64,000 bases of DNA from Albugo candida. Its lineage: Eukaryota; Oomycota; Peronosporomycetes; Albuginales; Albuginaceae. Positions 27,828 to 62,814 of this stretch are shown one piece after another (positions within the stretch are counted from its first letter, which is position 1; the number at the start of each line of letters is the position of its first letter). The DNA lies in the NCBI GenBank assembly GCA_905220665.1, contig CAJNAR010000168.1:372001-436000 (forward strand). The letters are read 5' to 3'. Below the pieces are notes generated by a model that did not search any database, had not been told where the DNA came from, and saw only the letters and a list, made by a program, of their open reading frames with translations. Both the position numbers and the translations under genes were made by a program.

Positions 27828-27836
27828 TTCGCGAGT

Positions 27837-28081: not shown

Positions 28082-29540
28082 GCATGAGACTCCATTTCAT
28101 GACAACTGATTTTTTCTGTTGTGTGATAAGAAATCAGCCTTGTGATAACGTGCATGAAGCCATTCGTGATACATTGTTATGGTGAGTTGTGCAGTGTTGG
28201 ACAGGAGAAACATTCAGAACAATCTGCATAGAAGCAACTATGTGCGACTTTCTTATAAGAATATCCAGATAGATTTCGCCTTGAAACTGATCTCTAAAAC
28301 ATTGATTTCTCAAATTCCTATGTTTTTCAGGAGCTCAAAAACCAGATTTCTCAAACACACTTTAATATAAGTTTAGTAACAACCTGAACGGTTATTCATC
28401 CTTGAACCATCAAGCCTACACGAACCAATCTCAGCATGATGGAGAGCTCACACCGGACTTATATATAGAAAGGCATCGCATTGTGTCAATCAGTGCGAGT
28501 ACAAGAAGAAAATAGATGTCGATAATCATGCAAGCTACCTGCTTTAGCAGTTGTCTAATATTCCCCTGTAGCATATTTCGCTTTCTTCATGAATTGGACA
28601 TACAGAAAAAACTCATATCAGGTTGTTTTGCGAAACATCATACGATAATGAGCAAGTAATGTCGAGAATTAGAGAGTCCTCGAGTATAGAGAACGGGTTA
28701 CAGAAATGTCGTGTGATACTGCAAAAAATTCATGTGGCTGTACTTTATGAACGTGCCAAAGTGATAGATATCTCACAAGGGTCTAGACATTTGTATCCGT
28801 GGTAACTTACTCGATCACTTTTCCTGATTGAATAAATGGACTGGTGCCAGCATTTGCATTAGTTAGAAAGTACTTGGGATTGACAATTTCATAAACTTGC
28901 GAGCATGAGACTCCATTTCATGACAACTGATTTTTTCTGTTGTGTGATAAGGCATCAGCCTTGTGATAACGTGCATGAAGCCATTCCTGGTACATTGTTA
29001 TAGTGAGTTGTGCAGTGTTGGACAGGAGAAACATTCAGAACAATCTGCATAGAAGCAACTATGTGCGACTTTCTTATAAGAATACCAAGATAGATTTCGC
29101 CTTGAAACTGATCTCTAAAACATTGATTTCTCAAATTCCTATGTTTTTCAGGAGCTCAAAAACCAGATTTCTCAAACACACTTTAATATAAGTTTAGTAA
29201 CAACCTGAACGGTTATTCATCCTTGAACCATCAAGCCTACAGGAACCAATATCAGCATGATGGAGAGCTCACACCGGACTTATATATAGAAAGGCATCGC
29301 ATTGTGTCAATCAGTGGGAGTACAAGAAGAAAATAGATGTCGATGATCATGCAAGCTACCTGTTTTAGCAGTTACCTAATATTCCCCTGTAGCATATTTC
29401 GCTTTCTTCATGAATTGGACATACAGAAAAAACTCATATCAGGTTGTTTTGCGAAACATCATACGATAATGAGAAAAAAATGTCGAGAAGCAGAGAGTCC
29501 TCGAGGACAGAGAACGGGTTACAGAAATGTCGTGTGATAC

Positions 29541-29852
29541 ATGTTGCCTCCTGGCATTTTGGACACCTGAGTGATTACGCAGCGATTTAAAGATTTAATT
29601 TTGTGTCAATGTCCCACTCAAAACTGAAAAGACGTGATCGTTGTCAATGATGGCGTGAAGTATGCATTCTTTTGCAATCGCAATTACAAACAACGAAGGA
29701 CATCAGATTCGTGCGCAACACACCGATATTCGCTATCATTTTTTGTACGCGATCATGTTAAGAAAGGGATCTTGGAGCAGTTTGTTGCGAGCTTCACTAT
29801 AAGAAAAGAACGGGCTTCTCTGATATTATACGCCAGCATGTTGGAGTGATAC
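29541..29852 (+). repeat. 312-bp optional module of long units (first of ten complete copies)
   Basis: Present only in long units, between TCGTGTGATAC and TGCAATAAATTC. The module begins ATGTTGCCTCCTGG and ends GGAGTGATAC, so GTGATAC stands on both sides of it. Other complete copies: 30675-30986, 32630-32941, 37828-38139, 38960-39271, 40092-40403, 42533-42844, 43665-43976, 49547-49858, 50679-50990. Partial copies lie at 33261-33364 and about 33975-34072. Each complete copy contains a 71-codon frame with no recognised domain. Confidence 0.9.
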
Positions 29853-32800
29853 TGCAATAAATTCATGTGGCTGCACTTTATGAACGTGCCAAAGTGATAG
29901 ATATCTCACAAGGGTCTAGACATTTGTATCCGTGGTGACTTACTCGGTCATTTTTTCCTGATTGAATAAATGGACTGGTGCTAGCATCTACATTATTGAG
30001 AAAGTACTTGAGATTGATAATTTCATAAACTTGCGAGCATGAGACTCCATTTCATGACAACTGATTTTTTCTGTTGTTTGATAAGGCATCAGCCTTGTGA
30101 TAACGTGCATGAAGCCATTCCTGGTACATTGTTATAGTGAGTTGTGCAGTGTTGGACAGGAGAAACATTCAGAACAATCTGCATAGAAGCAACTATGTGC
30201 GACTTTCTTATAAGAATATCCAGATAGATTTCGCCTTGAAACTGATCTCTAAAACATTGATTTCTCAAATTTCTATGTTTTTCAGGAGCTCAAAAACCAG
30301 ATTTCTCAAACACACTTTAATATAAGTTTAGTAACAACCTGAACGGTTATTCATCCTTGAACCATCAAGCCTACAGGAACCAATATCAGCATGATGGAGA
30401 GCTCACACCGGACTTATATATAGAAAGGCATCGCATTGTGTCAATGAGTGCGAGTACAAGAAAAAAATAGATGTCGATAATCATGCAAGCTACCTGCTTT
30501 AGCAGTTGTCTAATATTCCCCTGAAGCATATTTCGCTTTCTTCATGAATTGGAAATACAGAAAAAACTCATATCAGGTTGTTTTGCAAAACATCATACGA
30601 TAATGAGAAAATAATGTCGAGAAGCAGAGAGTCCTCGAGGACAGAGAACGGGTTACAGAAATGTCGTGTGATACATGTTGCCTCCTGGCATTTTGGACAC
30701 CTGAGTGATTACGCAGCGATTTAAAGATTCAATTTTGTGTCAAAGTCCCACTCAAAACTGAAAAGACGTGATCGTTGTCAATGATGGCGTGAAGTATACA
30801 TTCTTTTGCAATCGCAATTACAAACAACGAAGGACATCAGATTCGTACGCAACACACCGATATTCGCTATCATTTTTTGTACGCGATCATGTTAAGAAAG
30901 GGATCTTGGAGCAGTTTGTTGCGAGCTTCACTATGAGAAAAGAACGGGCTTCTCTGATATTATACGCCAGCATGTTGGAGTGATACTGCAATCAATTCAT
31001 GTGGCTGTACTTTATGAACGTGCCAAAGTGATAGATATCTCACAAGGGTCTAGACATTTGTATCCGTGGTGACTTACTCGATCATTTTTTCCTGATTGAA
31101 TAATGGACTGGTGCTAGCATCTACATTATTGAGAAAGTACTTGAGATTGACAATTTCATAAACTTGCGAGCATGAGACTCCATTTCATGACAGCTGATTT
31201 TTTCTGTTGTGTGATAAGGCATCAGCCTTGTGATAACGTGCATGAAGCCATTCCTGGTACATTGTTATAGTGAGTTGTGCAGTGTTGGACAGGAGAAACA
31301 TTCAGAACAATCTGCATAGAAGCAACTATGTGCGACTTTCTTATAAGAATACCAAGATAGATTTCGCCTTGAAACTGATCTCTAAAACATTGATTTCTCA
31401 AATTCCTATGTTTTTCAGGAGCTCAAAAACCAGATTTCTCAAACACACTTTAATATAAGTTTAGTAACAACCTGAACGGTTATTCATCCTTGAACCATCA
31501 AGCCTACAGGAACCAATATCAGCATGATGGAGAGCTCACACCGGACTTATATATAGAAAGGCATCGCATTGTGTCAATCAGTGGGAGTACAAGAAGAAAA
31601 TAGATGTCGATGATCATGCAAGCTACCTGCTTTAGCAGTTACCTAATATTCCCCTGAAGCATATTTCGCTTTCTTCATGAATTGGACATACAGAAAAAAC
31701 TCATATCAGGTTGTTTTGCGAAACATCATACGATAATGAGCAAATAATGTCGAGAAGTAGAGGGTCCTCGAGGATAGAGAACGGGTTACAGAAATGTCGT
31801 GTGATACTGCAATAAATTCATGTGGCTGCACTTTATGAACGTGCCAAAGTGATAGATATCTCACAAGGGTCTAGACATTTGTATCCGTGGTGACTTACTC
31901 GGTCATTTTTTCCTGATTGAATAAATGGACTGGTGCTAGCATCTACATTATTGAGAAAGTACTTGAGATTGATAATTTCATAAACTTGCGAGCATGAGAC
32001 TCCATTTCATGACAACTGATTTTTTCTGTTGTGTGATAAGGCATCAGCCTTGTGATAACGTGCATGAAGCCATTCGTGATACATTGTTGTAGTGAGTTAT
32101 GCAGTGTTGGACACGAGAAACATTCAGAACAATCTGCATAGAAGCAACTATGTGCGACTTTCTTATAAGAATATCCAGATAGATTTCGCCTTGAAACTGA
32201 TCTCTAAAACATTGATTTCTCAAATTCCTATGTTTTTCAGGAGCTCAAAAACCAGATTTCTCAAACACACTTTAATATAAGTTTAGTAACAACCTGAACG
32301 GTTATTCATCCTTGAACCATCAAGCCTACAGGAACCAATATCAGCATGATGGAGAGCTCACACCGGACTTATATATAGAAAGGCATCGCATTGTGTCAAT
32401 GAGTGCGAGTACAAGAAAAAAATAGATGTCGATAATCATGCAAGCTACCTGCTTTAGCAGTTGTCTAATATTCCCCTGAAGCATATTTCGCTTTCTTCAT
32501 GAATTGGAAATACAGAAAAAACTCATATCAGGTTGTTTTGCAAAACATCATACGATAATGAGAAAATAATGTCGAGAAGCAGAGAGTCCTCGAGGACAGA
32601 GAACGGGTTACAGAAATGTCGTGTGATACATGTTGCCTCCTGGCATTTTGGACACCTGAGTGATTACGCAGCGATTTAAAGATTCAATTTTGTGTCAATG
32701 TCCCACTCAAAACTGAAAAGACGTGATCGTTGTCAATGATGGCGTGAAGTATGCATTCTTTTGCAATCGCAATTACAAACAACGAAGGACATCAGATTCG

Positions 32801-33225
32801 TGCGCAACACACCGATATTCGCTATCATTTTTTGTACGCGATCATGTTAAGAAAGGGATCTTGGAGCAGTTTGTTGCGAGCTTCACTATAAGAAAAGAAC
32901 GGGCTTCTCTGATATTATACGCCAGCATGTTGGAGTGATACTGCAATAAATTCATGTGGCTGCACTTTATGAACGTGCCAAAGTGATAGATATCTCACAA
33001 GGGTCTAGACATTTGTATCCGTGGTGACTTACTCGGTCATTTTTTCCTGATTGAATAAATGGACTGGTGCTAGCATCTACATTATTGAGAAAGTACTTGA
33101 GATTGATAATTTCATAAACTTGCGAGCATGAGACTCCATTTCATGACAACTGATTTTTTCTGTTGTTTGATAAGGCATCAGCCTTGTGATAACGTGCATG
33201 AAGCCATTCCTGGTACATTGTTTTA

Positions 33226-33648
33226 GTGAGTTGTGCAGTGTTGGACAGGAGAAACATTCAGCGATCATGTTAAGAAAGGGATCTTGGAGCAGTTTGTTGC
33301 GAGCTTCACTATGAGAAAAGAACGGGCTTCTCTGATATTATACGCCAGCATGTTGGAGTGATACTGCAATAAATTCATGTGGCTGCACTTTATGAACGTG
33401 CCAAAGTGATAGATATCTCACAAGGGTCTATACATATGTATCCGTGGTAACTTATCCGATCCTTTTTGCCTGATTGAATAAATGGACTGGTGCTAGCATC
33501 TACATTAGTTAGAAAGTACTTGAGATTGACAATTTCATAAACTTGCGAGCATGAGACTCCATTTCATGACAACTGATTTTTTCTGTTGTGTGATAAGGCA
33601 TCAGCCTTGTGATAACGTGCATGAAGCCATTCCTGGTACATTGTTATA
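33226..33648 (+). repeat. Chimeric unit 6 (423 bp, internal deletion)
   Basis: The unit starts normally to GAAACATTCA at 33260, then jumps to GCGATCATGTTAAG, the late part of the 312-bp module. About 710 bp of a long unit are lost. A short shared CAG/GCG context at the break suggests end-joining between misaligned copies. Confidence 0.85.
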
Positions 33649-34356
33649 GTGAGTTGTGCAGTGTTGGACAGGAGAAACATTCAGAACAATCTGCATAGAA
33701 GCAACTATGTGCGACTTTCTTATAAGAATACCAAGATAGATTTCGCCTTGTAACTGATCTCTAAAACATTGATTTCTCAAATTCCTATGTTTTTCAGGAG
33801 CTCAAAAACCAGATTTCTCAAACACACTTTAATATAAGTTTAGTAACAACCTGAACGGTTATTCATCCTTGAACCATCAAGCCTACAGGAACCAATATCA
33901 GCATGATGGAGAGCTCACACCGGACTTATATATAGAAAGGCATCGCATTGTGTCAATCAGTGGGAGTACAAGAAATGTTAAGAAAGGGATCTTGGAGCAG
34001 TTTGTTGCGAGCTTCACTATGAGAAAAGAACGGGCTTCTCTGATATTATACGCCAGCATGTTGGAGTGATACTGCAATAAATTCATGTGGCTGCACTTTA
34101 TGAACGTGCCAAAGTGATAGATATCTCACAAGGGTCTATACATATGTATCCGTGGTAACTTATCCGATCCTTTTTGCCTGATTGAATAAATGGACTGGTG
34201 CTAGCATCTACATTAGTTAGAAAGTACTTGAGATTGACAATTTCATAAACTTGCGAGCATGAGACTCCATTTCATGACAGCTGATTTTTTCTGTTGTGTG
34301 ATAAGGCATCAGCCTTGTGATAACGTGCATGAAGCCATTCCTGGTACATTGTTATA
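33649..34356 (+). repeat. Chimeric unit 7 (708 bp, internal deletion)
   Basis: The unit runs normally to AGTACAAGAA at about 33974, then joins ATGTTAAGAAAGG of the optional module. Its breakpoint in the module is within about ten bases of that in the preceding unit, while the other end differs by about 300 bp. Confidence 0.85.
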
Positions 34357-35981
34357 GTGAGTTGTGCAGTGTTGGACAGGAGAAACATTCAGAACAATCT
34401 GCATAGAAGCAACTATGTGCGACTTTCGTATAAGAATATCCAGATAGATTTCGCCTTGAAACTGATCTCTAAAACATTGATTTCTCAAATTCCTATGTTT
34501 TTCAGGAGCTCAAAAACCAGATTTCTCAAACACACTTTAATATAAGTTTAGTAACAACCTGAACGGTTATTCATCCTTGAACCATCAAGCCTACAGGAAC
34601 CAATATCAGCATGATGGAGAGCTCACACCGGACTTATATATAGAAAGGCATCGCATTGTGTCAATGAGTGCGAGTACAAGAAGAAAATAGATGTCGATGA
34701 TCATGCAAGCTACCTGCTTTAGCAGTTACCTAATATTCCCCTGAAGCATATTTCGCTTTCTTCATGAATTGAACATACAGAAAAAACTCACATCAGGTTG
34801 TTTTGCGAAACATCATACGATAATAAGAAAATAATGTCGAGAAGCAGAGAGTCCTCGAGGACAGAGAACGGGTTACAGAAATGTCGTGTGATACTGCATC
34901 CTGGCACTTTATGAACGTGCCAAGATGATAGATATCTCACAAGGGTCTAGACATTTGTATCCGTGGTAACTTACTCGATCACTTTTCCTGATTGAATAAA
35001 TGGACTGGTGCCAGCATTTGCATTAGTTAGAAAGTACTTGAGATTGACAATTTCATAAACTTGCGAGCATGAGACTCCATTTCATGACAGCTGATTTTTT
35101 CTGTTGTGTGATAAGGCATCAGCCTTGTGATAACGTGCATGAAGCCATTCCTGGTACATTGTTATAGTGAGTTGTGCAGTGTTGGACAGGAGAAACATTC
35201 AGAACAATCTGCATAGAAGCAACTATGTGCGACTTTCTTATAAGAATATCCAGATAGATTTCGCCTTAAAACTGATCTCTAAAACATTGATTTCTCAAAT
35301 TCCTTTTTCAGGAGCTCAAAAACCAGATTTCTCAAACACACTTTAATATAAGTTTAGTAACAACCTGAACGGTTATTCATCCTTGAACCATCAAGCCTAC
35401 AGGAACCAATATCAGCATGATGGAGAGCTCACACCGGACTTATATATAGAAAGGCATCGCATTGTGTCAATGAGTGCGAGTACAAGAAGAAAATAGATGT
35501 CGATGCTCATGCAAGCTACCTGCTTTAGCAGTTGTCTAATATTCCCCTGTAGCATATTTCGCTTTCTTCATGAATTGGACATACAGAAAAAACTCATATC
35601 AGGTTGTTTTGCGAAACATCATACGATAATGAGCAAATAATGTCGAGAAGTAGAGGGTCCTCGAGGATAGAGAACGGGTTACAGAAATGTCGTGTGATAC
35701 TGCAATAAATTCATGTGGCTGCACTTTATGAACGTGCCAAAGTGATAGATATCTCACAAGGGTCTATACATATGTATCCGTGGTAACTTATCCGATCCTT
35801 TTTGCCTGATTAAATAAATGGACTGGTGCCAGCATCTACATTAGTTAGAAAGTACTTGAGATTGACAATTTCATAAACTTGCGAGCATGAGACTCCATTT
35901 CATGACAACTGATTTTTTCTGTTGTGATAAGGCATCAGCCTTGTGATGACGTGCATGAAGCCATTCGTGATACATGTTATA

Positions 35982-36469
35982 GTGAGTTGTGCAGTGTTGG
36001 ACAGGAGAAACATTCAGAACAATCTGCATAGAAGCAACTATGTGCGACTTTCTTATAAGAATATCCAGATAGATTTCGCCTTGAAACTGATCTCTAAAAC
36101 ATTGATTTCTCAAATTCCTATGTTTTTCAGGAGCTCAAAAACCAGATTTCTCAAACACACTTTAATATAAGTTTAGTAACAACCTGAACGGTTATTCATC
36201 CTTGAACCATCAAGCCTACAGGAACCAATATCAGCATGATGGAGAGCTCACACCGGACTTATATATAGAAAGGCATCGCATTGTGTCAATCAGTGCGAGT
36301 ACAAGAAGAAAATAGATGTCGATTATTAGTTAGAAAGTACTTGAGATTGACAATTTCATAAACTTGCGAGCATGAGACTCCATTTCATGACAACTGATTT
36401 TTTCTGTTGTGTGATAAGGCATCAGCCTTGTGATAACGTGCATGAAGCCATTCGTGATACATTGTTATA
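35982..36469 (+). repeat. Short (488-bp) unit with the 333-bp deletion junction (first of eleven)
   Basis: The sequence ATAGATGTCGAT is joined directly to TATTAGTTAGAAAG (near 36321); in medium units about 333 bp lie between. The same junction recurs near 41025, 46242, 47551, 48862, 54075, 54563, 55872, 57182, 59315 and 62272. One identical junction in eleven units means a single origin followed by spread through the array. Confidence 0.9.
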
Positions 36470-39400
36470 GTGAGTTGTGCAGTGTTGGACAGGAGAAACA
36501 TTCAGAACAATCTGCATAGAAGCAACTATGTGCGACTTTCTTTTAAGAATTTCCAGATAGATTTTTCCTTGAAACTGATCTCTAAAACATTGATTTCTCA
36601 AATTCCTATGTTTTTCAGGAGCTCAAAAACCAGATTTCTCAAACACACTTTAATATAAGTTTAGTAACAACCTGAACGGTTATTCATCCTTGAACCATCA
36701 AGCCTACAGGAACCAATATCAGCATGATGGAGAGCTCACACCGGACTTATATATAGAAAGGCATCGCATTGTGTCAATGAGTGCGAGTACAAGAAGAAAA
36801 TAGATGTCGATAATCATGCAAGCTACCTGCTTTAGCAGTTGTCTAATATTCCCCTGTAGCATATTTCGCTTTCTTCATGAATTGGACATACAGAAAAAAC
36901 TCATATCAGGTTGTTTTGCGAAACATCATACGATAATGAGCAAGTAATGTCGAGAAGCAGAGAGTCCTGGAGGACAGAGAACGGGTTACAGAAATGTCGT
37001 GTGATACTGCAATAAATTCATGTGGCTGCACATTATGAACGTGCCAAAGTGATAGATATCTCACAAGAGTCTAGACATTTGTATCCGTGGTAACTTACTC
37101 GATCACTTTTCCTGATTGAATAAATGGACTGGTGCTAGCATCTACATTAGTTAGAAAGTACTTGAGATTGACAATTTCATAAACTTGCGAGCATGAGACT
37201 CCATTTCATGACAACTGATTTTTTCTGTTGTGTGATAAGGCATCAGCCTTGTGATAACGTGCATGAAGCCATTCCTGGTACATTGTTATAGTGAGTTGTG
37301 CAGTGTTGGACAGGAGAAACATTCAGAACAATCTGCATAGAAGCAACTATGTGCGACTTTCTTTTAAGAATTTCCAGATAGATTTTTCCTTGAAACTGAT
37401 CTCTAAAACATTGATTTCTCAAATTCCTATGTTTTTCAGAGCTCAAAAACCAGATTTCTCAAACACACTTTAATATAAGTTTAGTAACAACCTGAACGGT
37501 TATTCATCCTTGAACCATCAAGCCTACAGGAACCAATATCAGCATGATGGAGAGTTCACACCGGACTTATATATAGAAAGGCATCGCATTGTGTCAATGA
37601 GTGCGAGTACAAGAAAAAAATAGATGTCGATAATCATGCAAGCTCCCTGCTTTAGCAGTTGTCTAATAATCCCCTGAAGAATATTTCGATTTCTTCATGA
37701 ATTGGACATACAGAAAAAACTCATATCAGGTTGTTTTGCAAAACATCATACGATAATAAGAAAATAATGTCGAGAAGCAGAGAGTCCTCGAGGACAGAGA
37801 ACGGGTTACAGAAATGTCGTGTGATACATGTTGCCTCCTGGCATTTTGGACACCTGAGTGATTACGCAGCGATTTAAAGATTTAATTTTGTGTCAAAGTC
37901 CCACTCAAAACTGAAAAGACGTGATCGTTGTCAATGATGGCGTGAAGTATACATTCTTTTGCAATCGCAATTACAAACAACGAAGGACATCAGATTCGTG
38001 CGCAACACACCGGTATTCGCTATCATTTTTTGTACGCGATCATTTTAAGAAAGGAATCTTGGAGCAGTTTGTTGCGAGCTTCACTATGAGAAAAGAACGG
38101 GCTTTTCTGATATTATACGCCAGCATGTTGGAGTGATACTGCAATAAATTCATGTGGCTGTACTTTATGAACGTGCCAAAGTGATAGATATCTCACAAGG
38201 GTCTAGACATTTGTATCCGTGGTAACTTACTCGATCACTTTTCCTGATTGAATAAATGGACTGGTGCCAGCATTTGCATTAGTTAGAAAGTACTTGAGAT
38301 TGACAATTTCATAAACTTGCGAGCATGAGACTCCATTTCATGACAACTGATTTTTTCTGTTGTGTGATAAGGCATCAGCCTTGTGATAACGTGCATGAAG
38401 CCATTCCTGGTACAATGTCATGGTGAGTTGTGCAGTGTTGGACAGGGGAAACATTCAGAACAATCTGCATAGAAGCAACTATGTGCGACTTTCTTATAAG
38501 AATATCCAGATAGATTTCGCCTTGAAACTGATCTCTAAAACATTGATTTCTCAAATTCCTATGTTTTTCAGAGCTCAAAAACCAGATTTCTCAAACACAC
38601 TTTAATATAAGTTTAGTAACAACCTGAACGGTTATTCATCCTTGAACCATCAAGCCTACAGGAACCAATATCAGCATGATGGAGAGCTCACACCGGACTT
38701 ATATATAGAAAGGCATCGCATTGTGTCAATGAGTGCGAGTACAAGAAGAAAATAGATGTCGATGCTCATGCAAGCTACCTGCTTTAGCAGTTGTCTAATA
38801 TTCCCCTGAAGCATATTTCGCTTTCTTCATGAATTGAACATACAGAAAAAACTCACATCAGGTTGTTTTGCAAAACATCATACGATAATAAGAAAATAAT
38901 GTCGAGAAGCAGAGAGTCCTCGAGGACAGAGAACGGGTTACAGAAATGTCGTGTGATACATGTTGCCTCCTGGCATTTTGGACACCTGAGTGATTACGCA
39001 GCGATTTAAAGATTTAATTTTGTGTCAAAGTCCCACTCAAAACTGAAAAGACGTGATCGTTGTCAATGATGGCGTGAAGTATACATTCTTTTGCAATCGC
39101 AATTACAAACAACGAAGGACATCAGATTCGTACGCAACACACCGATATTCGCTATCATTTTTTGTACGCGATCATGTTAAGAAAGGGATCTTGGAGCAGT
39201 TTGTTGCGAGCTTCACTATGAGAAAAGAACGGGCTTCTCTGATATTATACGCCAGCATGTTGGAGTGATACTGCAATAAATTCATGTGGCTGTACTTTAT
39301 GAACGTGCCAAAGTGATAGATATCTCACAAGGGTCTAGACATTTGTATCCGTGGTAACTTACTCGATCACTTTTCCTGATTGAATAAATGGACTGGTGCC

Positions 39401-40686
39401 AGCATTTGCATTAGTTAGAAAGTACTTGAGATTGACAATTTCATAAACTTGCGAGCATGAGACTCCATTTCATGACAACTGATTTTTTCTGTTGTGTGAT
39501 AAGGCATCAGCCTTGTGATAACGTGCATGAAGCCATTCCTGGTACAATGTCATGGTGAGTTGTGCAGTGTTGGACAGGGGAAACATTCAGAACAATCTGC
39601 ATAGAAGCAACTATGTGCGACTTTCTTATAAGAATATCCAGATAGATTTCGCCTTGAAACTGATCTCTAAAACATTGATTTCTCAAATTCCTATGTTTTT
39701 CAGAGCTCAAAAACCAGATTTCTCAAACACACTTTAATATAAGTTTAGTAACAACCTGAACGGTTATTCATCCTTGAACCATCAAGCCTACAGGAACCAA
39801 TATCAGCATGATGGAGAGCTCACACCGGACTTATATATAGAAAGGCATCGCATTGTGTCAATGAGTGCGAGTACAAGAAGAAAATAGATGTCGATGCTCA
39901 TGCAAGCTACCTGCTTTAGCAGTTGTCTAATATTCCCCTGAAGCATATTTCGCTTTCTTCATGAATTGAACATACAGAAAAAACTCACATCAGGTTGTTT
40001 TGCAAAACATCATACGATAATAAGAAAATAATGTCGAGAAGCAGAGAGTCCTCGAGGACAGAGAACGGGTTACAGAAATGTCGTGTGATACATGTTGCCT
40101 CCTGGCATTTTGGACACCTGAGTGATTACGCAGCGATTTAAAGATTTAATTTTGTGTCAAAGTCCCACTCAAAACTGAAAAGACGTGATCGTTGTCAATG
40201 ATGGCGTGAAGTATACATTCTTTTGCAATCGCAATTACAAACAACGAAGGAAATCAGATTCGTACGCAACACACCGATATTCGCTATCATTTTTTGTACG
40301 CGATCATGTTAAGAAAGGGATCTTGGAGCAGTTTGTTGCGAGCTTCACTATGAGAAAAGAACGGGCTTCTCTGATATTATACGCCAGCATGTTGGAGTGA
40401 TACTGCAATCAATTCATGTGGCTGTACTTTATGAACGTGCCAAAGTGATAGATATCTCACAAGGGTCTAGACATTTGTATCCGTGGTAACTTACTCGATC
40501 ACTTTTCCTGATTGAATAAATGGACTGGTGCCAGCATTTGCATTAGTTAGAAAGTACTTGAGATTGACAATTTCATAAACTTGCGAGCATGAGACTCCAT
40601 TTCATGACAACTGATTTTTTCTGTTGTGTGATAAGGCATCAGCCTTGTGATAACGTGCATGAAGCCATTCCTGGTACAATGTCATG
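35982..40686 (+). repeat. Higher-order block S-M-L-L-L (4705 bp)
   Basis: Five consecutive units totalling 4705 bp. The following block from 40687 (S-M-L-L) repeats the same order and the same private variants at an offset of exactly 4705 bp, for example 37243 to 41948 and 38420 to 43125. A third, shorter version without the M unit starts at 48523 (S-L-L). Confidence 0.8.
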
Positions 40687-43600
40687 GTGAGTTGTGCAGT
40701 GTTGGACAGGGGAAACATTCAGAACAATCTGCATAGAAGCAACTATGTGCGACTTTCTTATAAGAATATCCAGATAGATTTCGCCTTGAAACTGATCTCT
40801 AAAACATTGATTTCTCAAATTCCTATGTTTTTCAGGAGCTCAAAAACCAGATTTCTCAAACACACTTTAATATAAGTTTAGTAACAACCTGAACGGTTAT
40901 TCATCCTTGAACCATCAAGCCTACAGGAACCAATATCAGCATGATGGAGAGCTCACACCGGACTTATATATAGAAAGGCATCGCATTGTGTCAATCAGTG
41001 CGAGTACAAGAAGAAAATAGATGTCGATTATTAGTTAGAAAGTACTTGAGATTGACAATTTCATAAACTTGCGAGCATGAGACTCCATTTCATGACAACT
41101 GATTTTTTCTGTTGTGTGATAAGGCATCAGCCTTGTGATAACGTGCATGAAGCCATTCGTGATACATTGTTATAGTGAGTTGTGCAGTGTTGGACAGGAG
41201 AAACATTCAGAACAATCTGCATAGAAGCAACTATGTGCGACTTTCTTTTAAGAATTTCCAGATAGATTTTTCCTTGAAACTGATCTCTAAAACATTGATT
41301 TCTCAAATTCCTATGTTTTTCAGGAGCTCAAAAACCAGATTTCTCAAACACACTTTAATATAAGTTTAGTAACAACCTGAACGGTTATTCATCCTTGAAC
41401 CATCAAGCCTACAGGAACCAATATCAGCATGATGGAGAGCTCACACCGGACTTATATATAGAAAGGCATCGCATTGTGTCAATGAGTGCGAGTACAAGAA
41501 GAAAATAGATGTCGATAATCATGCAAGCTACCTGCTTTAGCAGTTGTCTAATATTCCCCTGAAGCATATTTCGCTTTCTTCATGAATTGAACATACAGAA
41601 AAAACTCATATCAGGTTGTTTTGCAAAACATCATACGATAATGAGCAAGTAATGTCGAGAAGCAGAGAGTCCTGGAGGACAGAGAACGGGTTACAGAAAT
41701 GTCGTGTGATACTGCAATAAATTCATGTGGCTGCACTTTATGAACGTGCCAAGATGATAGATATCTCACAAGGGTCTAGACATTTGTATCCGTGGTAACT
41801 TACTCGATCACTTTTCCTGATTGAATAAATGGACTGGTGCTAGCATCTACATTAGTTAGAAAGTACTTGAGATTGACAATTTTATAAACTTGCGAGCATG
41901 AGACTCCATTTCATGACAACTGATTTTTTCTGTTGTGTGATAAGGCATCAGCCTTGTGATAACGTGCATGAAGCCATTCCTGGTACATTGTTATAGTGAG
42001 TTGTGCAGTGTTGGACAGGAGAAACATTCAGAACAATCTGCATAGAAGCAACTATGTGCGACTTTCGTATAAGAATATCCAGATAGATTTCGCCTTGAAA
42101 CTGATCTCTAAAACATTGATTTCTCAAATTCCTATGTTTTTCAGAGCTCAAAAACCAGATTTCTCAAACACACTTTAATATAAGTTTAGTAACAACCTGA
42201 ACGGTTATTCATCCTTGAACCATCAAGCCTACAGGAACCAATATCAGCATGATGGAGAGTTCACACCGGAGTTATATATAGAAAGGCATCGCATTGTGTC
42301 AATGAGTGCGAGTACAAGAAAAAAATAGATGTCGATAATCATGCAAGCTCCCTGCTTTAGCAGTTGTCTAATAATCCCCTGAAGAATATTTCGATTTCTT
42401 CATGAATTGGACATACAGAAAAAACTCATATCAGGTTGTTTTGCAAAACATCATACGATAATAAGAAAATAATGTCGAGAAGCAGAGAGTCCTCGAGGAC
42501 AGAGAACGGGTTACAGAAATGTCGTGTGATACATGTTGCCTCCTGGCATTTTGGACACCTGAGTGATTACGCAGCGATTTAAAGATTTAATTTTGTGTCA
42601 AAGTCCCACTCAAAACTGAAAAGACGTGATCGTTGTCAATGATGGCGTGAAGTATACATTCTTTTGCAATCGCAATTACAAACAACGAAGGACATCAGAT
42701 TCGTGCGCAACACACCGGTATTCGCTATCATTTTTTGTACGCGATCATTTTAAGAAAGGAATCTTGGAGCAGTTTGTTGCGAGCTTCACTATGAGAAAAG
42801 AACGGGCTTTTCTGATATTATACGCCAGCATGTTGGAGTGATACTGCAATAAATTCATGTGGCTGTACTTTATGAACGTGCCAAAGTGATAGATATCTCA
42901 CAAGGGTCTAGACATTTGTATCCGTGGTAACTTACTCGATCACTTTTCCTGATTGAATAAATGGACTGGTGCCAGCATTTGCATTAGTTAGAAAGTACTT
43001 GAGATTGACAATTTCATAAACTTGCGAGCATGAGACTCCATTTCATGACAACTGATTTTTTCTGTTGTGTGATAAGGCATCAGCCTTGTGATAACGTGCA
43101 TGAAGCCATTCCTGGTACAATGTCATGGTGAGTTGTGCAGTGTTGGACAGGGGAAACATTCAGAACAATCTGCATAGAAGCAACTATGTGCGACTTTCTT
43201 ATAAGAATATCCAGATAGATTTCGCCTTGAAACTGATCTCTAAAACATTGATTTCTCAAATTCCTATGTTTTTCAGAGCTCAAAAACCAGATTTCTCAAA
43301 CACACTTTAATATAAGTTTAGTAACAACCTGAACGGTTATTCATCCTTGAACCATCAAGCCTACAGGAACCAATATCAGCATGATGGAGAGCTCACACCG
43401 GACTTATATATAGAAAGGCATCGCATTGTGTCAATGAGTGCGAGTACAAGAAGAAAATAGATGTCGATGCTCATGCAAGCTACCTGCTTTAGCAGTTGTC
43501 TAATATTCCCCTGAAGCATATTTCGCTTTCTTCATGAATTGAACATACAGAAAAAACTCACATCAGGTTGTTTTGCAAAACATCATACGATAATAAGAAA

Positions 43601-45904: not shown

Positions 45905-48522
45905 GTGAGTTGTGCAGTGTTGGACAGGGGAAACATTCAGAACAATCTGCATAGAAGCAACTATGTGCGACTTTCTTATAAGAATATCCAGATAGATTTC
46001 GCCTTGAAACTGATCTCTAAAACATTGATTTCTCAAATTCCTATGTTTTTCAGGAGCTCAAAAACCAGATTTCTCAAACACACTTTAATATAAGTTTAGT
46101 AACAACCTGAACGGTTATTCATCCTTGAACCATCAAGCCTACAGGAACCAATATCAGCATGATGGAGAGCTCACACCGGACTTATATATAGAAAGGCATC
46201 GCATTGTGTCAATCAGTGCGAGTACAAGAAGAAAATAGATGTCGATTATTAGTTAGAAAGTACTTGAGATTGACAATTTCATAAACTTGCGAGCATGAGA
46301 CTCCATTTCATGACAACTGATTTTTTCTGTTGTGTGATAAGGCATCAGCCTTGTGATAACGTGCATGAAGCCATTCGTGATACATTGTTATAGTGAGTTG
46401 TGCAGTGTTGGACAGGAGAAACATTCAGAACAATCTGCATAGAAGCAACTATGTGCGACTTTCTTTTAAGAATTTCCAGATAGATTTTTCCTTGAAACTG
46501 ATCTCTAAAACATTGATTTCTCAAATTCCTATGTTTTTCAGGAGCTCAAAAACCAGATTTCTCAAACACACTTTAATATAAGTTTAGTAACAACCTGAAC
46601 GGTTATTCATCCTTGAACCATCAAGCCTACAGGAACCAATATCAGCATGATGGAGAGCTCACACCGGACTTATATATAGAAAGGCATCGCATTGTGTCAA
46701 TGAGTGCGAGTACAAGAAGAAAATAGATGTCGATAATCATGCAAGCTACCTGCTTTAGCAGTTGTCTAATATTCCCCTGAAGCATATTTCGCTTTCTTCA
46801 TGAATTGAACATACAGAAAAAACTCATATCAGGTTGTTTTGCAAAACATCATACGATAATGAGCAAGTAATGTCGAGAAGCAGAGAGTCCTGGAGGACAG
46901 AGAACGGGTTACAGAAATGTCGTGTGATACTGCAATAAATTCATGTGGCTGCACTTTATGAACGTGCCAAAGTGATAGATATCTCACAAGGGTCTAGACA
47001 TTTGTATCCGTGGTAACTTACTCGATCACTTTTCCTGATTGAATAAATGGACTGGTGCTAGCATCTACATTAGTTAGAAAGTACTTGAGATTGACAATTT
47101 TATAAACTTGCGAGCATGAGACTCCATTTCATGACAACTGATTTTTTCTGTTGTGTGATAAGGCATCAGCCTTGTGATAACGTGCATGAAGCCATTCGTG
47201 ATACATGGTTATAGTGAGTTGTGCAGTGTTGGACAGGGGAAACATTCAGAACAATCTGCATAGAAGCAACTATGTGCGACTTTCTTATAAGAATATCCAG
47301 ATAGATTTCGCCTTGAAACTGATCTCTAAAACATTGATTTCTCAAATTCCTATGTTTTTCAGGAGCTCAAAAACCAGATTTCTCAAACACACTTTAATAT
47401 AAGTTTAGTAACAACCTGAACGGTTATTCATCCTTGAACCATCAAGCCTACAGGAACCAATATCAGCATGATGGAGAGCTCACACCGGACTTATATATAG
47501 AAAGGCATCGCATTGTGTCAATCAGTGCGAGTACAAGAAGAAAATAGATGTCGATTATTAGTTAGAAAGTACTTGAGATTGACAATTTCATAAACTTGCG
47601 AGCATGAGACTCCATTTCATGACAACTGATTTTTTCTGTTGTGTGATAAGGCATCAGCCTTGTGATAACGTGCATGAAGCCATTCGTGATACATTGTTAT
47701 AGTGAGTTGTGCAGTGTTGGACAGGAGAAACATTCAGAACAATCTGCATAGAAGCAACTATGTGCGACTTTCTTTTAAGAATTTCCAGATAGATTTTTCC
47801 TTGAAACTGATCTCTAAAACATTGATTTCTCAAATTCCTATGTTTTTCAGGAGCTCAAAAACCAGATTTCTCAAACACACTTTAATATAAGTTTAGTAAC
47901 AACCTGAACGGTTATTCATCCTTGAACCATCAAGCCTACAGGAACCAATATCAGCATGATGGAGAGCTCACACCGGACTTATATATAGAAAGGCATCGCA
48001 TTGTGTCAATGAGTGCGAGTACAAGAAGAAAATAGATGTCGATAATCATGCAAGCTACCTGCTTTAGCAGTTGTCTAATATTCCCCTGAAGCATATTTCG
48101 CTTTCTTCATGAATTGAACATACAGAAAAAACTCATATCAGGTTGTTTTGCAAAACATCATACGATAATGAGCAAGTAATGTCGAGAAGCAGAGAGTCCT
48201 GGAGGACAGAGAACGGGTTACAGAAATGTCGTGTGATACTGCAATAAATTCATGTGGCTGCACTTTATGAACGTGCCAAGATGATAGATATCTCACAAGG
48301 GTCTAGACATTTGTATCCGTGGTAACTTACTCGATCACTTTTCCTGATTGAATAAATGGACTGGTGCTAGCATCTACATTAGTTAGAAAGTACTTGAGAT
48401 TGACAATTTTATAAACTTGCGAGCATGAGACTCCATTTCATGACAACTGATTTTTTCTGTTGTGTGATAAGGCATCAGCCTTGTGATAACGTGCATGAAG
48501 CCATTCCTGGTACATTGTTATA
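45905..48522 (+). repeat. Higher-order dimer S-M repeated twice (1309-bp period)
   Basis: Units at 45905(S)-46393(M) and 47214(S)-47702(M) repeat with an offset of 1309 bp. The M units share a variant in which TTCTTATAAGAATATCC is TTCTTTTAAGAATTTCC, also found in the units at 36470, 37291 and 41175. Confidence 0.8.
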
Positions 48523-54500: not shown

Positions 54501-57500
54501 TTATATATAGAAAGGCATCGCATTGTGTCAATCAGTGCGAGTACAAGAAGAAAATAGATGTCGATTATTAGTTAGAAAGTACTTGAGATTGACAATTTCA
54601 TAAACTTGCGAGCATGAGACTCCATTTCATGACAACTGATTTTTTCTGTTGTGTGATAAGGCATCAGCCTTGTGATAACGTGCATGAAGCCATTCCTGGT
54701 ACAATGTCATGGTGAGTTGTGCAGTGTTGGACAGGGGAAACATTCAGAACAATCTGCATAGAAGCAACTATGTGCGACTTTCTTATAAGAATATCCAGAT
54801 AGATTTCGCCTTGAAACTGATCTCTAAAACATTGATTTCTCAAATTCCTATGTTTTTCAGAGCTCAAAAACCAGATTTCTCAAACACACTTTAATATAAG
54901 TTTAGTAACAACCTGAACGGTTATTCATCCTTGAACCATCAAGCCTACAGGAACCAATATCAGCATGATGGAGAGCTCACACCGGACTTATATATAGAAA
55001 GGCATCGGATTGTGTCAATCAGTGCGAGTACAAGAAGAAAATAGATGTCGATAATCATGCAAGCTACCTGCTTTAGCAGTTATCTAATGTACCCCTGCAG
55101 CATATTTCGCTTTCTTCATGAATTGGACATACAGAAAAAACTCACATCAGGTTGTTTTGCGAAACATCATACGATAATGAGCAAGTAATGTCGAGAAGCA
55201 GAGAGTCCTGGAGGACAGAGAACGGGTTACAGAAATGTCGTGTGATACTGCAATAAATTCATGTGGCTGCACTTTATGAACGTGCCAAAGTGATAGATAT
55301 CTCACAAGGGTCTAGACATTTGTATCCGTGGTAACTTACTCGATCCTTTTTGCCTGATTAAATAAATGGACTGGTGCCAGCATCTACATTAGTTAGAAAG
55401 TACTTGAGATTGACAATTTCATAAACTTGCGAGCATGAGACTCCATTTCATGACAACTGATTTTTTCTGTTGTGTGATAAGGCATCAGCCTTGTGATAAC
55501 GTGCATGAAGCCATTCGTGATACATTGTCATGGTGAGTTGTGCAGTGTTGGACAGGAGAAACATTCAGAACAATCTGCATAGAAGCAACTATGTGCGACT
55601 TTCTTGAAAAAATATCCCGATTGATTTCGCCTTGAAACTGATCTCGAAAACATTGATTTCTCAAATTCCTATGTTTTTCAGGAGCTCAAAAACCAGATTT
55701 CTCAAACACACTTTAATATAAGTTTAGTAACAACCTGAACGGTTATTCATCCTTGAACCATCAAGCCTACAGGAACCAATATCAGCATGATGGAGAGCTC
55801 ACACCGGACTTATATATAGAAAGGCATCGCATTGTGTCAATCAGTGCGAGTACAAGAAGAAAATAGATGTCGATTATTAGTTAGAAAGTACTTGAGATTG
55901 ACAATTTCATAAACTTGCGAGCATGAGACTCCATTTCATGACAACTGATTTTTTCTGTTGTGTGATAAGGCATCAGCCTTGTGATAACGTGCATGAAGCC
56001 ATTCGTGATACATTGTTATAGTGAGTTGTGCAGTGTTGGACAGGGGAAACATTCTGAACAATCTGCATAGAAGCAACTATGTGCGACTTTCTTATAAGAA
56101 TATCCAGATAGATTTCGCCTTGAAACTGATCTCTAAAAAACATTCATTTCTCAAATTCCTATGTTTTTCAGGAGCTCAAAAACCAGATTTCTCAAACACA
56201 CTTTAATATAAGTTTAGTAACAACCTGAACGGTTATTCATCCTTGAACCATCAAGCCTACAGGAACCAATATCAGCATGATGGAGAGCTCACACCGGACT
56301 TATATATAGAAAGGCATCGCATTGTGTCAATGAGTGCGAGTAAAAGAAGAAAATAGATGTCGATAATCATGCAAGCTACCTGCTATAGCAGTTGTCTAAT
56401 ATTCCCCTGTAGCATATTTCGCTTTCTTCATGAATTGGACATACAGAAAAAACTCACATCAGGTTGTTTTGCGAAACATCATACGATAATGAGCAAGTAA
56501 TGTCGAGAAGCAGAGAGTCCTGGAGGACAGAGAACGGGTTACAGAAATGTCGTGTGATACTGCAATAAATTCATGTGGCTGCACTTTATGAACGTGCCAA
56601 AGTGATAGATATCTCACAAGGGTCTAGACATTTGTATCCGTGGTAACTTACTCGATCCTTTTTGCCTGATTAAATAAATGGACTGGTGCCAGCATCTACA
56701 TTAGTTAGAAAGTACTTGAGATTGACAATTTCATAAACTTGCGAGCATGAGACTCCATTTCATGACAACTGATTTTTTCTGTTGTGTGATAAGGCATCAG
56801 CCTTGTGATAACGTGCATGAAGCCATTCGTGATACATTGTTGTAGTGAGTTATGCAGTGTTGGACACGAGAAACATTCAGAACAATCTGCATAGAAGCAA
56901 CTATGTGCGACTTTCTTATAAGAATATCCAGATAGATTTCGCCTTGAAACTGATCTCAAAAACATTGATTTCTCAAATTCCTATGTTTTTCAGGAGCTCA
57001 AAAACCAGATTTCTCAAACACACTTTAATATAAGTTTAGTAACAACCTGAACGGTTATTCATCCTTGAACCATCAAGCCTACAGGAACCAATATCAGCAT
57101 GATGGAGAGCTCACACCGGACTTATATATAGAAAGGCATCGGATTGTGTCAATCAGTGCGAGTACAAGAAGAAAATAGATGTCGATTATTAGTTAGAAAG
57201 TACTTGAGATTGACAATTTCATAAACTTGCGAGCATGAGACTCCATTTCATGACAACTGATTTTTTCTGTTGTGTGATAAGGCATCAGCCTTGTGATAAC
57301 GTGCATGAAGCCATTCGTGATACATTGTTATAGTGAGTTGTGCAGTGTTGGACAGGAGAAACATTCAGAACAATCTGCATAGAAGCAACTATGTGCGACT
57401 TTCGTATAAGAATATCCAGATAGATTTCGCCTTGAAACTGATCTCTAAAACATTGATTTCTCAAATTCCTATGTTTTTCAGGAGCTCAAAAACCAGATTT

Positions 57501-60500
57501 CTCAAACACACTTTAATATAAGTTTAGTAACAACCTGAACGGTTATTCATCCTTGAACCATCAAGCCTACAGGAACCAATATCAGCATGATGGAGAGCTC
57601 ACACCGGACTTATATATAGAAAGGCATCGCATTGTGTCAATGAGTGCGAGTACAAGAAGAAAATAGATGTCGATAATCATGCAAGCTACCTGCTTTAGCA
57701 GTTGTCTAATATTCCCCTGAAGCATATTTCGCTTTCTTCATGAATTGAACATACAGAAAAAACTCACATCAGGTTGTTTTGCGAAACATCATACGATAAT
57801 GAGCAAGTAATGTCGAGAAGCAGAGAGTCCTCGAGGATAGAGAACGGGTTACAGAAATGTCGTGTGATACTGCAATAAATTCATGTGGCTGCACTTTATG
57901 AACGTGCCAAAGTGATAGATATCTCACAAGGGTCTAGACATTTGTATCCGTGGTGACTCACTCGATCACTTTTACTGATTGAATAAATGGACTGGTGCCA
58001 GCATCTACATTAGTTAGAAAGTACTTGAGATTGCCAATTTCATAAACTTGCGAGCATGAGACTCCATTTCATGACAACTGATTTTTTCTGTTGTGTGATA
58101 AGGCATCAGCCTTGTGATAACGTGCATGAAGCCATTCGTGATACATGGTTATAGTGAGTTGTGCAGTGTTGGACAGGGGAAACATTCAGAACAATCTGCA
58201 TAGAAGCAACTATGTGCGACTTTCGTATAAGAATATCCAGATAGATTTCGCCTTGAAACTGATCTCTAAAAAACATTCATTTCTCAAATTCCTATGTTTT
58301 TCAGGAGCTCAAAAACCAGATTTCTCAAACACACTTTAATATAAGTTTAGTAACAACCTGAACGGTTATTCATCCTTGAACCATCAAGCCTACAGGAACC
58401 AATATCAGCATGATGGAGAGCTCACACCGGACTTATATATAGAAAGGCATCGCATTGTGTCAATGAGTGCGAGTAAAAGAAGAAAATAGATGTCGATAAT
58501 CATGCAAGCTACCTGCTTTAGCAGTTGTCTAATATTCCCCTGAAGCATATTTCGCTTTCTTCATGAATTGAACATACAGAAAAAACTCACATCAGGTTGT
58601 TTAGCGAAACATCATACGATAATGAGCAAGTAATGTCGAGAAGCAGAGAGTCCTCGAGGATAGAGAACGGGTTACAGAAATGTCGTGTGATACTGCAATA
58701 AATTCATGTGGCTGCACTTTATGAACGTGCCAAAGTGATAGATATCTCACAAGGGTCTAGACATTTGTATCCGTGGTGACTCACTCGATCACTTTTACTG
58801 ATTGAATAAATGGACTGGTGCCAGCATCTATATTAGTTAGAAAGTACTTGAGATTGCCAATTTCATAAACTTGCGAGCATGAGACTCCATTTCATGACAA
58901 CTGATTTTTTCTGTTGTGTGATAAGGCATCAGCCTTGTGATAACGTGCATGAAGCCATTCGTGATACATGGTTATAGTGAGTTGTGCAGTGTTGGACAGG
59001 GGAAACATTCAGAACAATCTGCATAGAAGCAACTATGTGCGACTTTCTTATAAGAATATCCAGATAGATTTCGCCTTGAAACTGATCTCTAAAACATTGA
59101 TTTCTCAAATTCCTATGTTTTTCAGGAGCTCAAAAACCAGATTTCTCAAACACACTTTAATATAAGTTTAGTAACAACCTGAACGGTTATTCATCCTTGA
59201 ACCATCAAGCCTACAGGAACCAATATCAGCATGATGGAGAGCTCACACCGGACTTATATATAGAAAGGCATCGCATTGTGTCAATCAGTGCGAGTACAAG
59301 AAGAAAATAGATGTCGATTATTAGTTAGAAAGTACTTGAGATTGACAATTTCATAAACTTGCGAGCATGAGACTCCATTTCATGACAACTGATTTTTTCT
59401 GTTGTGTGATAAGGCATCAGCCTTGTGATGACGTGCATGAAGCCATTCGTGATACATTGTTATAGTGAGTTGTGCAGTGTTGGACAGGGAAACATTCAGA
59501 ACAATCTGCATAGAAGCAACTATGTGCGACTTTCGTATAAGAATATCCAGATAGATTTCGCCTTGAAACTGATCTCTAAAACATTGATTTCTCAAATTCC
59601 TATGTTTTTCAGGAGCTCAAAAACCAGATTTCTCAAACACACTTTAATATAAGTTTAGTAACAACCTGAACGGTTATTCATCCTTGAACCATCAAGCCTA
59701 CAGGAACCAATATCAGCATGATGGAGAGCTCACACCGGACTTATATATAGAAAGGCATCGCATTGTGTCAATGAGTGCGAGTAAAAGAAGAAAATAGATG
59801 TCGATAATCATGCAAGCTACCTGCTTTAGCAGTTGTCTAATATTCCCCTGAAGCATATTTCGCTTTCTTCATGAATTGAACATACAGAAAAAACTCACAT
59901 CAGGTTGTTTTGCGAAACATCATACGATAATGAGCAAGTAATGTCGAGAAGCAGCGAGTTCTCGAGGACAGAGAACGGGTTACAGAAATGTCGTGTGATA
60001 CTGCAATAAATTCATGTGGCTGCACTTTATGAACGTGCCAAAGTGATAGATATCTCACAAGGGTCTAGACATTTGTATCCGTGGTGACTTCACTCGATCA
60101 CTTTTACTGATTGAATAAATGGACTGGTGCCAGCATCTACATTAGTTAGAAAGTACTTGAGATTGCCAATTTCATAAACTTGCGAGCATGAGACTCCATT
60201 TCATGACAACTGATTTTTTCTGTTGTGTGATAAGGCATCAGCCTTGTGATAACGTGCATGAAGCCATTCGTGATACATTGTTATAGTGAGTTGTGCAGTG
60301 TTGGACAGGGGAAACATTCAGAACAATCTGCATAGAAGCAACTATGTGCGACTTTCTTATAAGAATATCCAGATAGATTTCGCCTTGAAACTGATCTCTA
60401 AAAAACATTCATTTCTCAAATTCCTATGTTTTTCAGGAGCTCAAAAACCAGATTTCTCAAACACACTTTAATATAAGTTTAGTAACAACCTGAACGGTTA

Positions 60501-62420
60501 TTCATCCTTGAACCATCAAGCCTACAGGAACCAATATCAGCATGATGGAGAGCTCACACCGGACTTATATATAGAAAGGCATCGCATTGTGTCAATGAGT
60601 GCGAGTAAAAGAAGAAAATAGATGTCGATAATCATGCAAGCTACCTGCTTTAGCAGTTGTCTAATATTCCCCTGAAGCATATTTCGCTTTCTTCATGAAT
60701 TGAACATACAGAAAAAACTCACATCAGGTTGTTTAGCGAAACATCATACGATAATGAGCAAGTAATGTCGAGAAGCAGCGAGTTCTCGAGGACAGAGAAC
60801 GGGTTACAGAAATGTCGTGTGATACTGCAATAAATTCATGTGGCTGCACTTTATGAACGTGCCAAAGTGATAGATATCTCACAAGGGTCTAGACATTTGT
60901 ATCCGTGGTGAATTACTCGATCGTTTTTTCCTGATTGAATAAATGGACTGGTGCCAGCATCTATATTAGTTAGAAAGTACTTGAGATTGACAATTTCATA
61001 AACTTGCGAGCATGAGACTCCATTTCATGACAACTGATTTTTTCTGTTGTGTGATAAGGCATCAGCCTTGTGATAACGTGCATGAAGCCATTCGTGATAC
61101 ATTGTTATAGTGAGTTGTGCAGTGTTGGACAGGAGAAACATTCAGAACAATCTGCATAGAAGCAACTATGTGCGACTTTCTTATAAGAATATCCAGATAG
61201 ATTTCGCCTTGAAACTGATCTCTAAAAAACATTCATTTCTCAAATTCCTATGTTTTTCAGGAGCTCAAAAACCAGATTTCTCAAACACACTTTAATATAA
61301 GTTTAGTAACAACCTGAACGGTTATTCATCCTTGAACCATCAAGCCTACAGGAACCAATATCAGCATGATGGAGAGCTCACACCGGACTTATATATAGAA
61401 AGGCATCGCATTGTGTCAATGAGTGCGAGTACAAGAAGAAAATAGATGTCGATAATCATGCAAGCTACCTGCTTTAGCAGTTGTCTAATATTCCCCTGAA
61501 GCATATTTCGCTTTCTTCATGAATTGAACATACAGAAAAAACTCACATCAGGTTGTTTAGCGAAACATCATACGATAATGAGCAAGTAATGTCGAGAAGC
61601 AGAGAGTCCTCGAGGATAGAGAACGGGTTACAGAAATGTCGTGTGATACTGCAATAAATTCATGTGGCTGCACTTTATGAACGTGCCAAAGTGATAGATA
61701 TCTCACAAGGGTCTAGACATTTGTATCCGTGGTGACTCACTCGATCACTTTTACTGATTGAATAAATGGACTGGTGCCAGCATCTACATTAGTTAGAAAG
61801 TACTTGAGATTGCCAATTTCATAAACTTGCGAGCATGAGACTCCATTTCATGACAACTGATTTTTTCTGTTGTGTGATAAGGCATCAGCCTTGTGATAAC
61901 GTGCATGAAGCCATTCGTGATACATGGTTATAGTGAGTTGTGCAGTGTTGGACAGGGGAAACATTCAGAACAATCTGCATAGAAGCAACTATGTGCGACT
62001 TTCTTATAAGAATATCCAGATAGATTTCGCCTTGAAACTGATCTCTAAAACATTGATTTCTCAAATTCCTATGTTTTTCAGGAGCTCAAAAACCAGATTT
62101 CTCAAACACACTTTAATATAAGTTTAGTAACAACCTGAACGGTTATTCATCCTTGAACCATCAAGCCTACAGGAACCAATATCAGCATGATGGAGAGCTC
62201 ACACCGGACTTATATATAGAAAGGCATCGCATTGTGTCAATCAGTGCGAGTACAAGAAGAAAATAGATGTCGATTATTAGTTAGAAAGTACTTGAGATTG
62301 ACAATTTCATAAACTTGCGAGCATGAGACTCCATTTCATGACAACTGATTTTTTCTGTTGTGTGATAAGGCATCAGCCTTGTGATGACGTGCATGAAGCC
62401 ATTCGTGATACATTGTTATA

Positions 62421-62814
62421 GTGAGTTGTGCAGTGTTGGACAGGAGAAACATTCAGAACAATCTGCATAGAAGCAACTATGTGCGACTTTCTTTTAAGAA
62501 TATCCAGATTGATTCGCCTTGAAACTGATCTCTAAAACATTGATTTCTCAAATTCCTATGTTTTTCAGGAGCTCAAAAACCAGATTTCTCAAACACACTT
62601 TAATATAAGTTTAGTAACAACCTGAACGGTTTTTCATCCTTGAATCATCCAGACTACAGGAACCAATCTTAGCATGATGGAGAGCTTACACCGGACTTAT
62701 ATATAGATAGGCATCACATTGAGGCAACGAGTGCGAGTACAAGAAGAAAATAGATGTCGAAAATTGTGCAAGCTATCTGCTTTAGCTGGTATCTAATATT
62801 CCCCTGAAGCATAT
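62421..62814 (+). repeat. Terminal, diverged partial unit of the array
   Basis: The last unit accumulates many substitutions after about 62630 and loses array similarity at CCCCTGAAGCATAT (62801-62814). It and the first unit both carry AACCAATCT[C/T]AGC where internal units read AACCAATATCAGC. Confidence 0.8.

Follow-up and report, generated by a model that had tools for sequence, protein, structure and literature searches.

The window, that is, the whole 64,000-nucleotide stretch of Albugo candida DNA analysed here (C166:372001-436000, in an assembly of 38.9 Mb and 196 contigs), contains a tandem array that is a new oomycete satellite family found at one locus, and the three lengths of its units have ordinary causes. 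Quite probably, an ancestral unit of 821 bp acquired a patchwork insert during repair in one case and lost its tail by deletion in another, and both derived forms were spread by turnover of the array. Among the causes of the unit lengths, the six-donor repair patchwork, amplified within a satellite, is the striking one.

Organization of the array

Unit starts were identified at 43 places on the plus strand of the window and at none on the minus strand; with the truncated first unit added, the array comprises 44 units and spans 34,733 bp, or 54% of the window, the letters of which include no N. The coordinates, orientation, unit number and share of the window given in an earlier note on this DNA are all borne out by these counts. 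The 42 complete units comprise 11 of about 488 bp, 19 of about 821 bp and 10 of about 1132 bp (40/42 within 12 bp of their class), and two outside these classes, which start at 33080 (420 bp) and 33500 (708 bp).

28082..62814, plus strand: tandem array of 44 head-to-tail units, the first and last truncated (unit starts, spacings, boundaries)
40538..41025, plus strand: example of a 488-bp unit, lacking the 333-bp tail (alignment of the three unit types)
36321..37141, plus strand: example of an 821-bp unit, arranged as in the diverged relic on contig C189 and taken as ancestral (unit and relic alignments)
36809..37141, plus strand: 333-bp segment (tail), absent from 488-bp units (unit and relic alignments)
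37142..38273, plus strand: example of a 1132-bp unit, reference for long-unit positions (alignment of the three unit types)
33080..33499, plus strand: irregular 420-bp unit, long-unit positions 1-185 joined to 895-1132 (spacings, alignment)
33500..34207, plus strand: irregular 708-bp unit, long-unit positions 1-475 joined to 901-1132 (spacings, alignment)

An alignment of one unit per class showed that the 1132-bp unit differs from the 821-bp one by an insert and that the 488-bp unit lacks the final 333 bp of the 821-bp form. The inserted module, at long-unit positions 687-998, lies inside the 333-bp segment, which in the long unit extends over about 489-1132. The 420-bp and 708-bp units are long units with an internal deletion, whereby the last ~90 bp of the module were retained and the first half of the 333-bp segment was lost. 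The earlier note had described three discrete lengths, the absence of the long module from any unit without the 333-bp segment, and an unusual modular satellite with defined states. The discrete lengths stand for 40 of the 42 complete units and fail for the two irregular ones; the rule on the long module holds for the most part, trivially, because the module sits inside the segment, and is broken by the irregular units, which carry the end of the module without the first half of the segment. A rule-based modular code is ruled out by this nesting together with the two irregular units. The three states hold as far as tested, and they are best taken as the outcome of two one-off rearrangements, not as an unusual coding by modules.

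Between-unit variation is lowest at unit positions 321-400 (e.g. 37462-37541), at 0.006 compared to 0.017-0.045 in the other backbone blocks.

Genomic distribution and nature of the unit

Using 28-base patterns with up to 3 mismatches, we located the tail at 91 places, all 91 of them on contigs C166, C56, C112 and C122, and the backbone at 124 places, of which the 100 listed are all on the same four contigs; read backwards, both patterns gave 0 places in the genome. These contigs count as one locus because C56 and C112 have the same flanks as the window and C122 begins at the left boundary of the array. A DNA search with the 821-bp unit, which skips words common in the genome, omitted even copies in the array and could have missed other diverged copies, returned one relative beyond the arrays, on C189 (71-75% identity). 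When a 307-bp stretch of this relative served as the query, the 40 scored matches, out of 127 candidates, were the stretch itself and 39 places in the arrays.

The 44 similar, head-to-tail, non-coding units, with mean differences of about 2-4%, correspond to satellite DNA. Presence on several chromosomes, at centromeres or at telomeres, which is common in satellites and not required of them, was not observed, the unit occurring at one locus and in the C189 relic. Stop-free stretches in a long unit reach 73 codons at most. No match was found in an Rfam search of the window, no RNA or tRNA genes were found within it, and Rfam revealed none of the rRNA genes in the window that should adjoin the array if it were an rDNA spacer; comparison of the unit with plasmid records likewise gave no match. 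A tandem array of LTR retrotransposons, the units of which would contain LTRs and internal domains, was considered and rejected, given that the unit aligns nowhere in the window to the left of the array, where a Copia element and its repeats are located, and contains no long reading frame. The earlier note had recognised no known family in the array and had named a match to a transposon or an rDNA spacer as grounds for abandoning that view. The view is upheld, as far as tested, by the lack of an Rfam match in the window and by the finding of a single diverged relic outside the arrays in a search that skips common words.

Presumed ancestral form of the unit

The C189 relic aligns with the unit over 717 columns at 72% identity, from mid-unit into the next unit, and runs uninterrupted across the insertion point as well as the 333-bp segment. 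It has the segment and lacks the module; hence, the 821-bp form is taken as ancestral, such that the 488-bp form would be a deletion and the 1132-bp form an insertion, with the polarity drawn from this one relic. The empty insertion site is accordingly known, in the 821-bp units as well as in C189.

Composition of the insert

The insert of ~305 bp (the 311-bp module) consists of six consecutive pieces of 34-90 bp that match six unlinked sources at 91-100% identity. Together, the six matches tile long-unit positions 687-992 except for 4 bases (766-769).

37821..37827, plus strand: left copy of the 7-bp duplication GTGATAC (unit and donor alignments)
37828..37861, plus strand: piece 1, long-unit positions 687-720, identical to C174 at 34/34 bases and apparently antisense, at that site, to a gene-like frame (pattern search, comparison)
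37856..37906, plus strand: piece 2, 715-765, matching C15 about 100-150 bp past the end of an ion-channel reading frame (alignment)
37911..37961, plus strand: piece 3, 770-820, matching C11 about 106-156 bp past the end of a DUF4200 reading frame (alignment)
37960..38049, plus strand: piece 4, 819-908, Copia retrotransposon fragment from the RNase H region, best match C167 (alignment; translation of a related copy)
38049..38088, plus strand: piece 5, 908-947, repeat family on C135, C47 and C96 (alignment)
38089..38133, plus strand: piece 6, from 941 or 948 to 992, satellite of roughly 457 bp on C97, C154 and C193 (alignment)
38133..38139, plus strand: right copy of the 7-bp duplication GTGATAC (unit and donor alignments)

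The modules were collected with a pattern anchored at both ends that permits other lengths, which yielded 27 copies, 10 in the array of the window and 17 in C56; outside this set are the remnants in the 420-bp and 708-bp units, the cut-short first half of a 1656-bp unit in C56 and the modules of C122, a contig covered in part. Over the 27 modules, identities between piece and donor are 100% (piece 1), 92-96% (piece 2), 94-96% (piece 3), 97-99% (piece 4), 92.5-95% (piece 5) and 91-93% (piece 6), with genome E-values of 2.6e-14, 2.1e-15, 2.0e-36, 1.9e-9 and 1.0e-9 for pieces 2 to 6, respectively. Piece 1 is exact over its 34 bases in 27/27 modules, and its 28-base pattern read backwards had 0 hits. 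The Copia family of piece 4 has copies on C167, C10, C162, C53, C145, C187, C21 and C157, and the translation of a related copy contains what we take to be an RNase H motif. Pfam assigned no family to the frames at the piece 1 and piece 5 sites or to those in the piece 6 satellite.

All six donors are still present, at loci distant from the array. Outside the match, each donor shown runs on into sequence that is absent from the module, and the copies of the Copia element, of the C135/C47/C96 repeat and of the satellite resemble each other well past the matched stretch. Thus, copying went from donor to module. The ~457-bp satellite fills long stretches of C97:1-10000, C154:620000-629999 (near the contig end) and C193:1-10000.

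As controls, the module read backwards was compared with the genome, with 0 hits, and three unrelated 318-bp stretches were searched, of which, beyond itself, the first matched nothing, the second a single diverged sequence and the third one repeat family, across its final 44 bp. Short single matches are not rare, and the argument lies in six unlinked ones in a row, found only in the module. The 821-bp unit was also considered as a control for the patchwork and set aside as weak, given that its search skips common words.

Two copies of GTGATAC flank the insert, and the 821-bp unit has a single one. The left end of the module starts ATGTTGCC, and its right end reads GTTGGAG followed by the duplication. 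Read by eye, the overlaps are about 4 nt between pieces 1 and 2 (followed by one or two unmatched bases), 2 nt between 3 and 4, 1 nt between 4 and 5, up to 5 nt between 5 and 6 and 1 nt between piece 6 and the array, with 4 nt of filler between pieces 2 and 3. Junction overlaps of 0-5 nt and one 4-nt filler are as expected of templated insertions.

Probable spread of the module through the array

The module has the same length in 27/27 copies, which fits a single event. A 28-base pattern across the left junction is exact at 37 places (10 in C166, 17 in C56, 10 in C122 and 0 in C112), a count of places in the assembly and not of units on one chromosome, the contigs being in part versions of one locus; with 1-3 mismatches, four more places were found, one each on C174, C34, C71 and C56. 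An exception to the one-event claim is a divergent, cut-short module in C56 that has a base missing at the left junction, where the array and piece 1 then have two bases in common.

In long units, the mean pairwise difference is 0.012 for the module, 0.019 for the backbone and 0.028 for the tail; in 821-bp units, it is 0.042 for the tail. Given its lower divergence, the module looks younger than the array. At two sites just left of the insert, A is present in 25/26 and 26/26 long units vs. 1/37 and 12/37 of the 821-bp units, and the backbone has few sites at which the commonest base differs between unit types. Linked sites next to the insert in an otherwise little-differing backbone are the pattern expected from exchange between units.

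Other contigs of the locus

The array of C56 is about 40.3 kb long, and its left flank is in common with the window (99.98% over 5121 bp); 43/45 complete units fit the three length classes. Irregular joins in this array are seen in a 1656-bp unit with a partial tandem duplication and an extra 37-bp duplication, and in a 302-bp unit with an internal deletion. C112 contains array units and the right flank of the window (99.96% over 2751 bp). In C122, the second complete unit of the stretch C122:15385-18652, a long unit, has C-rich, poorly aligning blocks, one in the backbone and one in the module, which may be consensus noise from low coverage.

The window and C56 agree over the first 3.7 kb of the array, which belong to a 4.8-kb block at 99.8% that includes the flank; beyond, the order of units is different, with displaced shared blocks, e.g. 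one of 7.0 kb at 99.1%. Since the units follow each other differently next to flanks that the contigs have in common, the array is either rearranging or imperfectly assembled; the differing orders would be accounted for by more than one haplotype or by a mixed culture. Copy number and unit order are given as they stand in the assembly.

Neighbourhood of the array

23556..28081, minus strand: Copia retrotransposon abutting the array (Pfam gag, integrase and zinc knuckle; repeat comparison)

The LTRs of this element, at about 23556-23781 and 27855-28080, are 92% alike. Its right end directly adjoins the array, and six bases, TTGCGA, are common to the end of the repeat and the unit. Insertion of the element into the array was rejected: the window to the left of the array is without unit sequence, so that the junction would be of another origin.

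Further away, positions 7316-8311 contain a frame with a reverse transcriptase domain (RVT_1), and the frames that follow it gave no match in Pfam; the element is probably of non-LTR type or degraded. Among the few scanned frames to the right of the array, the first in which Pfam recognised a gene are Palmitoyl protein thioesterase frames at about 442.8-443.8 kb of C166. Elicitins are an oomycete family; a search of the genome gave 21 matches to Elicitin (20 above the family cut-off) and 0 in 14 control genomes, which supports an oomycete origin of the DNA, and 12 elicitin-like frames are clustered within 100 kb at C12:254881-354584.

Proposed origin of the unit forms and alternative explanations

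In the proposed mechanism, a double-strand break in one unit would have been repaired by copying or capturing scraps in series, through polymerase-theta-type end joining, template-switching synthesis or end-joining capture of fragments as candidate routes. Such repair would leave filler DNA with short overlaps at the junctions and a filled-in overhang. The 488-bp form would be due to a separate deletion of the tail, and unequal exchange or gene conversion would then have spread both forms along the array, which would account for the discrete lengths as well as for the differing unit orders between contigs. The break-repair origin is a past event that we infer, and its pathway is not readable from the sequence. 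Pieces 5 and 6 stand somewhat against it, being short and only 91-95% like the copies compared.

The origin of the insert could be sought elsewhere. The 7-bp duplication would fit insertion by a transposase or a reverse transcriptase equally well, and pieces 2, 3 and 4, which are sense-oriented relative to neighbouring reading frames or to their own, would be equally expected from copies derived from RNA. If a retrotransposon enzyme had switched between RNAs, the module would be a chimeric reverse transcript that integrated with a short duplication of the target site; Copia is itself among the donors, and one class of human templated insertions is ascribed to the LINE-1 enzyme in the accessible part of the report (PMC5110952). 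We consider this origin a live rival, yet unlikely, since no poly(A) tract was found at the ends of the module, a feature in which it departs from the human class 1 (LINE-1) insertions, and piece 1 looks antisense: the differences among C174, C34 and C71 are, by eye, all synonymous only in the frame on the other strand, itself a frame without support from a Pfam family. Mobile elements such as MITEs, SINEs, gene-capturing Helitrons and Pack-type elements can carry captured fragments, and the short direct duplication at the ends would suit an ordinary element of this kind inserted in one unit. Such an insertion is nevertheless highly improbable: the left end with its junction is exact only in the arrays, all 40 scored matches (of 137 candidates) of a whole-module search are in the arrays, no inverted repeat between the two module ends was listed when one long unit was scanned for repeats and, to our knowledge, Helitrons make no target duplication. 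Within the break-repair reading, the array might also be a site of recurrent breaking and patching that traps scraps of the genome, with turnover making an abundant repeat out of a repair scar. We regard this extension as speculative and rather unlikely; if true, satellites would take in unrelated sequence by repair patchwork, and the 420-, 708-, 302- and 1656-bp units would be further scars.

Two further explanations concern the array as a whole. That artefacts of assembly underlie the array, the order of its units or their length classes, a doubt already raised in the earlier note, is suggested by the alternative contigs C56, C112 and C122, by the one noisy unit in C122 and by runs of N elsewhere in the assembly, some of which may be gaps. 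The doubt is weakened by the recurrence of the flanks, each flank junction being present in two contigs, and is left standing to a degree by the differing unit order; given also the lack of N in the window, the single module length in 27 copies and the differences of about 1% between displaced shared blocks, which are not duplicates, an artefact appears scarcely credible. A function, e.g. as a centromere or a regulatory tandem, could be argued from the position beside retrotransposons, from a TATA-like stretch in the three aligned example units and from the low variation at positions 321-400, and clusters of Copia mark centromeres in Phytophthora sojae according to the portion of that study consulted (PMC7082073). 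One abutting Copia element is not a cluster; moreover, only one locus with the array was found, the C189 relic has not preserved the TATA-like stretch, and no stop-free stretch of a long unit exceeds 73 codons, so that a function seems very unlikely. The array appears to behave like an unconstrained satellite, and we propose no cellular function for it.

Relation to known repeats and insertions

PpSat1 and PpSat2 of Phytophthora parasitica likewise form head-to-tail oomycete arrays of tens of kb, with no Repbase match reported, and PpSat1 is AT-rich, as is the present array (PMC7290008). According to the part of that report available, their units measure 337 and 143 bp, no patchwork module is described and PpSat1 is on 18 scaffolds, whereas the present array is at one locus; the distinction is drawn from the description and not from sequence (PMC7290008). 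Cassandra retroelements in plants, as far as the accessible text describes them, also form long tandem arrays (PMC7215508); in contrast, no retroelement parts were recognised in the present unit, and the Copia piece of the module is a 90-bp coding fragment.

Templated, or filler, insertions at breaks are described in the available parts of two reports for yeast, humans and plants, and can contain multiple fragments with overlaps of 0-20 nt (PMC11724301, PMC5110952). The module resembles them in its scraps from distant loci, several fragments, short overlaps, and retrotransposon and repeat donors (PMC11724301, PMC5110952), and the insert appears to fit the multi-fragment break insertions so described. 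It differs, within the same limits of those sources, in having six donors, in lying inside a satellite unit, in having been multiplied (37 places in the assembly) and in that its break is one we infer. In the open-licence literature searched, mostly at listing level, no description of a satellite with an amplified patchwork module was found.

How new satellite sequence originates is an open question, and the present case bears on it. Because one genome contains donors, empty site and amplified product alike, the path from a repair scar to an abundant repeat can be followed and dated. The module would also represent a multi-donor templated insertion in an oomycete.
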